Of a stretch of DNA of 34,497 nt, positions 3,900 to 7,745 are shown piece after piece. The notes beneath the pieces were generated by a model that saw only the letters and a program-made list of their open reading frames with translations, was not told the DNA's origin and ran no database searches. The stretch lies in contig CALHEE010000034.1 in NCBI GenBank assembly GCA_938023415.1, positions 1 to 34,497 on the forward strand, in the 5' to 3' direction. Position 1 is the first letter of the stretch. Each line of letters starts with the position of its first letter. A program made the translations under genes and the position numbers. The DNA is from Minisyncoccota bacterium (GTDB lineage Bacteria > Patescibacteriota > Minisyncoccia > Minisyncoccales > GBS-2).

Positions 3900-5366
3900 T
3901 TAAATTTTATCTTTTTTAAGGAACTTTAGCAAGATCTCTTTAGCTAACTGAGGATTGGCCCTTCCGCCTGTTTTTCTCATCAATTGACCGATTAGAAATT
4001 GAAGGGCAGGTATCTTGCCTTTTTGAAAATCTTCCACTGCCTTTTGATTTTCTAAGATTATTTCTTGGGCTAATTTTTCAATCTCTTTTTTATCGGTAAG
4101 TTGGACTAAGCCTTTTTCTTTAATGATCTGCAAGGGGTCAGCTCCGGTTTTGAACATTTCCGCCAATACCATTTTTCCAATTTTACTTGAAATTTTTCCT
4201 TCCTCAATCAAGCTAATAAATTGGGCAAAATTTTCTGGAGTAATTAAAATTTCTTTTTCCTCAAATGGTAAACCTTTTAAGAGACCCACTAAATCAGAAA
4301 TTAGATAATTTGAGCTCAGCTTAATCAATCTCAATAGTTTTTCTTTCTTTAAATTTGGCTCAAACTCAGAAACTATTTTCTCAAAATATTCTCCTAATTC
4401 TTTATTTTTTACCAAAATTTCAGTTGTCTTTTCATCTAATTGATATTCTCTCTTTAACCTCTCTCTTCTTTGGTGTGGAAGTTCGCCAATTTCTGACCGA
4501 ATTTTTAAAATGGTTTCTTCATCAATATAAAGTGGAGGCAAATCTGGCTCTGGAAAATAACGGTAGTCATGGGCCTTTTCTTTTTCTCTCTGGGGAAAGG
4601 TAACCTCTCTGAGATCATCCCACCCCCTTGTTTCCTGAAGGATTTTTTTTCCTTTTTTCAAGATCTCAGTCTGTCTTGCTATTTCGTACTCGATTGCCTT
4701 CTCTAATGCTCGGAAAGAATTTAAATTCTTAATCTCAACTTTTGTCCCTAATTCTCCCCTTTTTTTAGCCAAAGAAACATTAGCTTCTACCCTCAATTCT
4801 CCTTTTTCCATATCGGCCTCAGAAACATCCAAATATCTCAAAATAAGTTGCAACTCCTCAGCAAAATCTCTTGCTTCTTTAGCAGAAGTGAGATCTGGTT
4901 CCGTGACCAATTCCATTAGAGGAACACCTGCCCGATTAAAATCAACCAGGGAGCAATCTTTTTCGTGGATTAATCTGCCTGTATCTTCTTCCAGATGCAC
5001 CCTTTTTATTCGAATTTTCCTTCCTCTAACTTCTAAAAAGCCGTTTTTACAGAGTGGTTTTTGGTATTGGGAAATTTGATATCCCTTTGGCAAATCCGGG
5101 TAAAAATAATTTTTTCTTTCAAAAAAAGAGTTTTTTTCGATTTCACAATTTAGAGCAAGTCCAGTTTTTATTGTCTTTTTCACTGCCTCCTGATTGACAA
5201 CTGGTAATGTTCCGGGATGGCCTAGACAAATCGGACAGATATTAATGTTTGGATGAGTTTCTTCAGGATCGTTTTTGCAAGAGCAAAACATTTTTGTCTT
5301 TGTTTTCAACTCAATATGAATTTCCAAACCAATCACTGGCTGGAGGTTAAGCTTCAAAGTCTTCAT
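3900..5366 (-). CDS. gatB: Aspartyl/glutamyl-tRNA(Asn/Gln) amidotransferase subunit B
   Basis: PVIGLEIHIELKTKTKMFC, CPICLGHPGTLPVVN, C-terminal GatB/YqeY domain. Confidence 0.95.
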   Translation of the reverse strand: MKTLKLNLQPVIGLEIHIELKTKTKMFCSCKNDPEETHPNINICPICLGHPGTLPVVNQEAVKKTIKTGLALNCEIEKNSFFERKNYFYPDLPKGYQISQYQKPLCKNGFLEVRGRKIRIKRVHLEEDTGRLIHEKDCSLVDFNRAGVPLMELVTEPDLTSAKEARDFAEELQLILRYLDVSEADMEKGELRVEANVSLAKKRGELGTKVEIKNLNSFRALEKAIEYEIARQTEILKKGKKILQETRGWDDLREVTFPQREKEKAHDYRYFPEPDLPPLYIDEETILKIRSEIGELPHQRRERLKREYQLDEKTTEILVKNKELGEYFEKIVSEFEPNLKKEKLLRLIKLSSNYLISDLVGLLKGLPFEEKEILITPENFAQFISLIEEGKISSKIGKMVLAEMFKTGADPLQIIKEKGLVQLTDKKEIEKLAQEIILENQKAVEDFQKGKIPALQFLIGQLMRKTGGRANPQLAKEILLKFLKKDKI

Positions 5367-5378
5367 GGTGAAAAATCT

Positions 5379-6053
5379 TTAATTCTTTTCTCTTAATGTT
5401 TCTTCCATGATTTCTACCCCATAACTTGTTCCGATGATATCAGCGCCAGCCTTGAGTGCGTTTTTTAAATCTCTTAGAGTTTTAATCCCCCCAGAAGCTT
5501 TCACCAAGAGGTTGGGAACAGCTTTTCGCATAAGTTTTAGGTGATAAAACTTTTCCTTTAATTCCCGATATTCAAGAGGGTCTTTAACCGTGGCTGTTTT
5601 GACACAAATTGCCCCTGCTTCTTTGGAAATTTCACACACCTTAATGATTTCTTCATCAGTTAAATAACCAGAACCTATGATCACTTTTGTAGGCAAAATT
5701 TTGCAGATTGCTTTCAGGTCTCTTAAAACCTTTTCCCACCTTTCATGCTTGACATCAGGAAGAGAAACTACTACATCTATTTCATCAGCTCCATCTTTTT
5801 TTGCTTTTTGACAGATTTTTATCCTTTTTTTATGATCACTATCTCCAATCGGATCATCAACTAAGACAATCGTTTTAATTCCTGTTCCTTTTAGTTCCTT
5901 TGAAACTAATTTTACCCATTTTGGTCTTACGCAAACTCCCCGAAAACCGTATTTTTTTGCCTCTTGGCAGGTTTTTAAAATATCATCTTTTTTGAGATTA
6001 TTTCTAATGTTGGTATGATCGATGATTTTTGCCAAATTTTTTAAGCTAACCAT
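5379..6053 (-). CDS. deoC: Deoxyribose-phosphate aldolase
   Basis: IDHTNIRNN, DEIDVVVSLP, KVIIGSGYLTDEEI, CVKTATV, LVKASGGIKT. Confidence 0.92.
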   Translation of the reverse strand: MVSLKNLAKIIDHTNIRNNLKKDDILKTCQEAKKYGFRGVCVRPKWVKLVSKELKGTGIKTIVLVDDPIGDSDHKKRIKICQKAKKDGADEIDVVVSLPDVKHERWEKVLRDLKAICKILPTKVIIGSGYLTDEEIIKVCEISKEAGAICVKTATVKDPLEYRELKEKFYHLKLMRKAVPNLLVKASGGIKTLRDLKNALKAGADIIGTSYGVEIMEETLREKN

Positions 6054-6068
6054 AATTTTAAAAAATAA

Positions 6069-6193
6069 GGGGGGATCAGGGTGGGAATCGAACCCACGCC
6101 TCTTTCTTCAGTGAACCAGGAGGTGGAAGGGAAAATCACTGAAGAAAGCTTTTAGGGGTGGGAAAGCCCCTAGGCACCTCTCCTGATCCCTCC
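6069..6193 (-). ncRNA. Non-canonical tRNA-like RNA with perfect T-arm and acceptor-like stem but aberrant internal hairpins
   Basis: Minus strand: GGAGGGATCAGG (5') pairs with CCTGATCCCCCC (3'), one mismatch in 12; T-arm GTGGG-TTCGATT-CCCAC at 6081-6097; perfect 13-bp helix CTTTCTTCAGTGA/TCACTGAAGAAAG (6102-6114/6136-6148); hairpin TAGGGG-CTTTCCCA-CCCCTA (6153-6172). No CCA encoded. Confidence 0.6.
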
Positions 6194-6216
6194 ATTTTTA
6201 ATGAAGGTCCTATTTT

Positions 6217-6669
6217 CTAAATTAACAAAAATTCCTCATTTCCGCAAGAATAGTGAAAAAAAGCGGAGGTTTTTTCCTCCGCTTTTAAATCTTTTTTGAC
6301 TCTTTCAATGAACATTTCATATTCTTGGAGAATTTTTCTTAGTCGGCGATAATTTTCGATCGCAGAAAAGACGATTCCAGTTAAGGTTTTAATATCAGCT
6401 GAAATAGCTTCTCTGGAAGATGCTTTATGCTCTTTGAGCAAAGAAAGCAAGGAAAAAGTTATTTCTTTAGCTTCTTTTATCCAAGGTTCGGAAATTTCTT
6501 TTTCTGCCATCTCTATTGTTAAGAGAAGATCTTTTGCCATATTCTCTGGATTTTGTGAAGATAAAACCAAAAAAATTAGAGAAAAGGCCATAACCAAAAT
6601 TCCTATCACCGTGATCTTTCTCCCAAAAACTTTCTCCTCTTTGGTCACTAACTCTAATTTTTCCCTCAT
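6217..6669 (-). CDS. Hypothetical single-TM membrane protein (150 aa), divergent from the Tas-like gene
   Basis: SD AAAAAGGAGGGAAAATG; N-terminal TM ITVIGILVMAFSLIFLVLS; the rest looks alpha-helical. Confidence 0.65.
   Translation of the reverse strand: MREKLELVTKEEKVFGRKITVIGILVMAFSLIFLVLSSQNPENMAKDLLLTIEMAEKEISEPWIKEAKEITFSLLSLLKEHKASSREAISADIKTLTGIVFSAIENYRRLRKILQEYEMFIERVKKDLKAEEKTSAFFHYSCGNEEFLLI
6256..6286 (-). terminator. Terminator-like hairpin inside the 3' end of the 150-aa CDS
   Basis: Minus strand AAAAGCGGAGG-AAAAAA-CCTCCGCTTTTTTTC, located before the stop codon at 6217-6219. Confidence 0.6.
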
Positions 6670-6731
6670 TTTCCCTCCTTTTTAAAAGAGCTAAGTTCAA
6701 TTTTAGCAATCTTTATTTTAAAATCAAGCTC

Positions 6732-6760
6732 TTGACAATCATTAAAAATTTCTATATTCT
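6732..6760 (+). promoter_or_regulatory. Probable sigma70-type promoter of the Tas-like gene
   Basis: TTGACA (6732-6737), 17 nt, TATTCT (6755-6760) (alternative TATATT at 6753), then SD AAAGGAGG before ATG at 6788. Confidence 0.55.
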
Positions 6761-6787
6761 AAGAGAGCTCTTTAAAAGGAGGTGAAG

Positions 6788-7567
6788 ATGGAGTTAGGTT
6801 TGGATGAGTTAGAAAGAGAAATAATCACACTAGCTTATGCTTATGTGGAAGTTCAGAGAATAAGGGGAAGTTTGGAAAGTAAACATGGAAAAAGTAAAAG
6901 AAAAAACACTTCGTTTTCACCTATCCATTCTCTCCGGAAAGAAGCTTTGAAAATGATTGGCTTTGGGGAGGAGAAAATCGAGGAATTGAGAAAAAAAGAA
7001 AAGGAGATAAAAAAAGCACTTGAAAAAAATGTTTCTAAACATCCTCTCTGGACTTGGGCTTCCAAGGTAAAAGGTTTAGGTAAGCTTTCGACCGGGTTAG
7101 TCATGGCAGCTATCGGAGATATAAGTAGAGTTCAAACTTGCTCTGGGCTCTGGAAATCTTTTGGCCTTGATGTCACGCCAGAAGGAAAAGCCAGAAAGAT
7201 GATCCCTGGAAAAAAAGGAAGGGTCGGTTTTCCTTTTGCCAGAAGAATTTTGGGCCGAATAAGAAGGCAGATATTGTTCCATAAGGATGGTTTTTATTAC
7301 AAACTTTATCTTCAATATCGCCTTTATTACGACAATTTTAGACCAGATTGGCCAAAAGGACGGCGTTTCGGTGCTGCCATTCGAGCAACAGAAAAAATCT
7401 TCCTTTCCCATTTTTGGGAAGTTTGGCGAAAATCAAAAAATCTTCCTGCACCTGAACCTTACATGGTTGCCCAAAATCCTCTGTTGCACAGAAAAATTTC
7501 TCCAGAAGATGCCATAAATAAAATGGCATCTTCAAAGTCTAAAGGGAAAGAGGGCAAGCCGTTTTGA
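6788..7567 (+). CDS. TIGR-associated (Tas-like) RNA-binding protein: coiled coil plus IS110 Transposase_20/Nop-like C-terminal region, no recognisable nuclease domain (TasA-like)
   Basis: GLGKLSTGLVMAAIGDISRVQTCSGLWKSFGLDVTPEGKARKMIPGKKGRVGFPFARRILGRIRRQILFHKDGFYYKLYLQYR resembles the Transposase_20 half of IS110; no DEDD/RuvC or HNH motifs seen; adjacent to a 35-bp dual-block array. Confidence 0.72.
   Translation: MELGLDELEREIITLAYAYVEVQRIRGSLESKHGKSKRKNTSFSPIHSLRKEALKMIGFGEEKIEELRKKEKEIKKALEKNVSKHPLWTWASKVKGLGKLSTGLVMAAIGDISRVQTCSGLWKSFGLDVTPEGKARKMIPGKKGRVGFPFARRILGRIRRQILFHKDGFYYKLYLQYRLYYDNFRPDWPKGRRFGAAIRATEKIFLSHFWEVWRKSKNLPAPEPYMVAQNPLLHRKISPEDAINKMASSKSKGKEGKPF
7505..7533 (+). other. 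Perfect 11-bp inverted repeat (7-nt loop) in the 3' coding end, just upstream of the array
   Basis: GAAGATGCCAT-AAATAAA-ATGGCATCTTC. Confidence 0.8.
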
Positions 7568-7691
7568 CGGGGTAACCGTAAGTAGGGGGCGAGCCGTTTT
7601 GACAGGGTAACCGTAAGCAGAGGGCGAGCCGTCGATTTAGGAAAAACGTGCTCCTGGGGCGAGCCGTCATTATAGGGCGACCGTGTCTCCT
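7552..7691 (+). repeat. TIGR-like array: four 35-bp units, each with two conserved blocks and two variable segments
   Basis: GGGC starts at 7552, 7587, 7622, 7657 (exact 35-bp period). Units: GGGCAAGCCGTTTTGACGGGGTAACCGTAAGTAGG; GGGCGAGCCGTTTTGACAGGGTAACCGTAAGCAGA; GGGCGAGCCGTCGATTTAGGAAAAACGTGCTCCTG; GGGCGAGCCGTCATTATAGGGCGACCGTGTCTCCT. A degenerate fifth unit (GGGCGTGGCACC...) starts at 7692, in phase. Confidence 0.88.
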
Positions 7692-7712
7692 GGGCGTGGC
7701 ACCTTTTAAAGA

Positions 7713-7745
7713 CCCCCTAGGAATGACTAGGGGGTTTGTTTTTTG
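7713..7745 (+). terminator. Intrinsic terminator ending the array transcript; overlaps the tmk stop codon
   Basis: CCCCCTAG-GAATGA-CTAGGGGG followed by TTTGTTTTTTG. Confidence 0.8.

Follow-up and report, generated by a model that had tools for sequence, protein, structure and literature searches.

To our knowledge, the non-decoding RNAs that bacteria derive from tRNA are few, namely tmRNA and YrlA. In tmRNA (RF00023), a tRNA acceptor domain is joined to a long helix that replaces the anticodon arm, and the YrlA Y RNA (RF02553) is a non-decoding tRNA mimic of ~115 nt. A long acceptor/T domain is characteristic of tRNA-Sec and the allo-tRNAs (RF01852; review PMC7609411). The element described here, at 6193–6069 on the minus strand of the window (the whole 34,497-nucleotide stretch of DNA that was analysed), shares each of these features. 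The initial annotation called it an aberrant tRNA-like RNA, and the analysis supports that description. Inspection of the sequence revealed on this strand all of the stems that had been named, including the GCC/GGC pairs.

Anatomy of the element and comparison with known RNA families

6182–6193, minus strand: 5′ strand of the acceptor-like helix, GGAGGGATCAGG
6176–6181, minus strand: linker AGAGGT
6153–6172, minus strand: hairpin 1, in the position of the D-arm, with a 6-bp stem and an 8-nt loop CTTTCCCA
6102–6148, minus strand: hairpin 2, in the position of the anticodon arm, with a perfect 13-bp stem and a 21-nt loop TTTTCCCTTCCACCTCCTGGT
6098–6101, minus strand: AGGC, a 4-nt class I variable loop
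6081–6097, minus strand: consensus T-arm GTGGG TTCGATT CCCAC, flush with the acceptor helix
6069–6080, minus strand: 3′ strand of the acceptor-like helix, CCTGATCCCCCC, then TTATTTTTT

Read 5′ to 3′, the arms succeed one another as acceptor, spacer, hairpin 1, AAAG, hairpin 2, AGGC, T-arm and acceptor, which is the order of a cloverleaf. The earlier statement that no cloverleaf is recognisable goes too far: arm order and short variable loop match a cloverleaf, and it is the D- and anticodon arms that are remodelled. The acceptor-like helix comprises 12 positions with one A·C mismatch, and GGC of the AGGC segment may pair instead with GCC at 6173–6175. The outermost 7 nt on each side of hairpin 2, CTTTCTT and AAGAAAG, resemble the flanks of an anticodon stem. 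From this lower part of hairpin 2 to the 3′ end, the sequence looks like the normal 3′ half of a class I tRNA: the variable loop has four bases, and positions resembling U33 and A37-A38 can be recognised. The likeness to class I tRNA (RF00005) thus extends to arm order, T-arm and T-loop consensus, variable loop and anticodon-stem-like flanks, and the T-arm, with its TTCRA loop, lies flush with the acceptor as in a tRNA.

The other two arms differ from those of class I tRNA. The place of the D-arm is taken by the 6-bp/8-nt hairpin after a 9-nt spacer; a canonical D-arm with U8 is absent, position 8 being A, and an alternative 4-bp D-stem has a pair probability of 0.001. Instead of a 5-bp anticodon stem with a 7-nt loop, there are 13 bp and 21 nt. 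With the D-arm replaced and the anticodon arm so extended, the element, as judged from its sequence, should not decode. The segment GAGGTG (6175–6180) is complementary over 6 bp (−8 kcal/mol) to CACCTC in the loop of hairpin 2, a pairing that would form a possible, as yet unproven, pseudoknot. The same loop (6115–6135, minus strand) includes CACCTCCT, the usual 3′ end of 16S rRNA (the anti-Shine–Dalgarno sequence), and the idea of such a loop as a general Shine–Dalgarno sponge was noted.

ARAGORN and Rfam at gathering thresholds found only three ordinary tRNAs in the window and did not call the element, which scores below the tRNA thresholds. With introns allowed, ARAGORN gave nothing at the element at its normal threshold and two overlapping, contradictory models, one per strand, at a lowered threshold. 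The suggestion of a decoding tRNA with an intron is not supported, given the negative result at the normal threshold, the continuity of the helix, which has no bulge-helix-bulge, and the abnormality of the D-arm as well. The best sub-threshold Rfam family was tRNA-Sec, whose cut-off of 47 bits is well above the 26.9 bits of the element. Acceptor and T-arm alone contribute to this score, which several ordinary tRNAs of the genome equal. Unlike tRNA-Sec and the allo-tRNAs, the element has no separate variable arm besides the anticodon arm, and the proposal of an extreme variable arm was not borne out.

At the locus of the element, there was no match to the tmRNA model RF00023 and none to the YrlA model RF02553 at E up to 10. 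The element is far too short for tmRNA and has no tag frame, as had been recognised at the outset. Its acceptor has no G·U pair, and the genuine tmRNA of the genome lies on another contig (C12), so that the idea of a tmRNA remnant is not supported. The YrlA model has a permuted order, with T-arm, closed hairpin and D-arm inside an outer stem, whereas the element is unpermuted. We conclude that the element is not a detectable tRNA, tRNA-Sec, tmRNA or YrlA.

Two specific identities were considered and rejected. The idea of a Y RNA arose from a 28-nt match next to a TROVE gene of phage CcrColossus, but the arm order does not fit. That phage region (JX100810.1 108121–109348; L190) contains unannotated sub-threshold YrlA-like RNAs beside the TROVE-like gene, and tRNA-like pieces broken by a repeated hairpin-forming stretch, GTTCCCCCTCAACCT...AGGTTGAGGGTGGCG. 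The genome has 47 tRNA matches covering every amino acid except Asn. The element has no GTT in a usable loop and the relatives have an ordinary tRNA-Asn, which rules it out as the missing tRNA; the lack of tRNA-Asn(GTT) is likely to be an assembly gap. The same genome also has a degenerate tRNA (L066 101–174; G000:C20:19335–19408) that reaches 34 bits in Rfam and is uncalled by ARAGORN.

The tmk–deoC interval and the search for relatives

5379–6053, minus strand: deoC, followed by gatB (3900–5366)
6217–6669, minus strand: 150-residue open reading frame of the insertion
6259–6286, strand not assigned: intrinsic-terminator-like hairpin between the element and the upstream open reading frame
6782–7567, plus strand: TIGR-Tas (TasA-like) gene
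7549–7704, plus strand: TIGR array of approximately four 35-nt units
~7713–7743: terminator-like hairpin after the TIGR array

A gap of 15 nt separates the end of the element from the ATG of deoC on the same strand, confirming the initial annotation, and deoC has no Shine–Dalgarno sequence. The distance from tmk to deoC is ~1.65 kb (6054–7726). In the nearest relative, a member of the same family (locus L075), tmk directly abuts deoC, and in several other relatives tmk-like ends, read by eye, precede deoC. None of the 29 relatives examined has such an element upstream of deoC. The initial annotation had named two findings that would count against it, namely an ordinary tRNA at this site in relatives, with only a lineage-specific insertion, or unconserved stems; the outcome was a third one, in that both a tRNA and a homologue are lacking there in the relatives examined. 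From its sequence context, the ~1.65-kb segment between tmk and deoC–gatB is judged to be a lineage-specific insertion, and it holds the element, the 150-residue open reading frame and the TIGR-TasA module. The product of the open reading frame has no significant match in Pfam, PHROG, NCBIfam or phage proteins. The T-tract of the hairpin at 6259–6286 is seen on both strands by eye and on the plus strand in the scan; the presence of a terminator-like hairpin upstream suggests that the element belongs to a separate transcription unit. In a crude scan of the minus strand over 6193–6300, no sigma-70-like promoter was found.

The Tas-like protein matches the NCBIfam model TIGR_Tas_endo with E = 6e-28; its 98.3 bits fall slightly below the cut-off of 100. 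It also matches PDB entry 9mty, named as an IS110-type C-terminal-domain protein, with E = 4e-15 and TasH with 5e-4, and it has no nuclease domain. The array has two alternating repeats and overlaps the 3′ end of the tas gene. TIGR arrays of this layout have been described, CPR bacteria included (PMC12045711). Within the order, 13 further genomes contain matches to this family model, many of them weak; a search with the Tas protein in genome and viral contig collections yielded no related loci.

A BLAST search with the DNA of the element in 100 relatives gave no homologue, the loci opened being T-arms of ordinary tRNAs and one tmRNA. A covariance model built from the single sequence of the element (R1) was run on 247 genomes of the order and 384 of the class. 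Its best matches reached ~29 bits and included no homologue, and the matched site was an ordinary tRNA at all 40 loci opened. Viral, phage, plasmid and genome collections, searched by pattern or with blastn, likewise yielded no homologue, with the qualification that the large scans used stricter filters, so that weak relatives may be missed, and that the genus was represented by this genome alone. Two exact matches to the T-arm and acceptor in the genome collection proved to be a Pirellulaceae tRNA cluster and a Methylomirabilis tRNA-Sec, and viral matches to the 5′ pattern were unrelated. The element is therefore an orphan, with no relative in the sets searched.

Fold, base composition and chance

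The minimum-energy fold of the element has an energy of −58.8 kcal/mol (z −4.75), and none of the shuffled sequences was as good. It recovers the named helices, with minor deviations at the ends of hairpin 1 and within the 21-nt loop, and the mean pair probability of each helix lies between 0.89 and 0.995. Because the fold of the plus strand is at least as stable (−64.6 kcal/mol), the strand was assigned by the T-arm and not by energy. In first-order random sequence, the expectation for a Watson–Crick T-arm with a TTCRA loop and a flush acceptor of at least 9 bp is 0.003 per window; for a perfect 13-bp hairpin whose loop does not exceed 40 nt, it is 0.125 per 34 kb. We conclude that the T-arm/acceptor structure is not due to chance.

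The G+C content of the element is 56%, compared with 36% for the window and 26% and 0% for the flanks, and only 5 of 1375 windows of its size are as G+C-rich. It falls within the range of the three tRNAs of the window (53–62%), as expected of a maintained structured RNA. A single mismatch is present among 39 paired positions.

Origin and possible role

The element is probably a remodelled tRNA, be it a functional RNA or a remnant. Our best explanation, which we hold tentatively, is that the element is a tRNA-derived non-decoding RNA handled by tRNA-processing enzymes within the deoC–gatB leader. The T-arm stacked on the acceptor, which RNase P, RNase Z and the CCA-adding enzyme recognise, would have been retained with a short variable loop, and two stable hairpins would have taken the place of the D-arm and the anticodon arm, abolishing codon reading. 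Transcribed on the minus strand as part of the leader, the RNA would be cut by RNase P at ~6189/6188 (by a 12-bp rule) and by RNase Z near 6073, giving a tRNA-like RNA of ~116 nt and a short-leadered deoC–gatB mRNA. The element would thus both punctuate the transcript for processing and supply a stable small RNA. Intact stems, a T-arm/acceptor structure beyond chance, a tRNA-like G+C content, cloverleaf order, strand and proximity to deoC, and the terminator-like hairpin upstream count in favour of this reading. Against it are the lack of any homologue in the sets searched, the negative result of the crude promoter scan on the minus strand and the fold of the plus strand, which is at least as stable. 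Moreover, acceptor pairing beyond 7 bp, across the site of CCA addition, may hinder RNase Z.

It is a serious possibility, though one that we would not call probable, that the element is instead a relic, an island-borne tRNA gene remodelled by hairpin-forming insertions in its D- and anticodon arms and now non-functional. Its orphan status and its confinement to a lineage-specific island favour such an origin, and the tRNA-like 3′ half and the second degraded tRNA of the genome are consistent with it. However, the helices show no decay beyond the one mismatch, the T-loop retains the full consensus and the G+C content is high in a low-G+C genome; the intact stems and the high G+C favour function.

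A leader acting in cis on deoC–gatB, as an attenuator or sensor with a tRNA-like fold that works in the mRNA uncut, is distinctly unlikely. The 15-nt spacing on the same strand would suit it, the 12-position helix, with TTATTTTTT after it, looks like a terminator and the GAGGTG/CACCTC complementarity would allow an alternative fold. This helix, however, closes a large multiloop, unlike that of ordinary terminators, deoC has no Shine–Dalgarno sequence to control and the element is lacking upstream of deoC in the relatives examined. The stability of the plus strand might point to a fortuitous structure with a T-arm lookalike and no tRNA origin, but the rarity expected for a consensus T-arm flush with an acceptor makes this very improbable. 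There is scarcely any likelihood that the element is part of the TIGR-Tas module, for example as a guide or target: the two share the insertion and tas is 0.6 kb away, but the module already has its own dual-repeat array, the spacer pairs do not match the element and R1 finds nothing convincing beside other Tas genes of the order, so that we treat the two as neighbours.

It is conceivable but somewhat unlikely that the element represents a small, previously unrecognised family of stable tRNA-like RNAs that do not decode, which arose when the D- and anticodon arms of a tRNA were replaced and which serve a reduced bacterial genome in mRNA processing or regulation. As an orphan for which there is no conservation, the element stays a lead. 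If it is expressed, it would illustrate how a very small genome can convert a tRNA to another use, and would offer a simple test of the minimal part of a tRNA needed by the processing enzymes.
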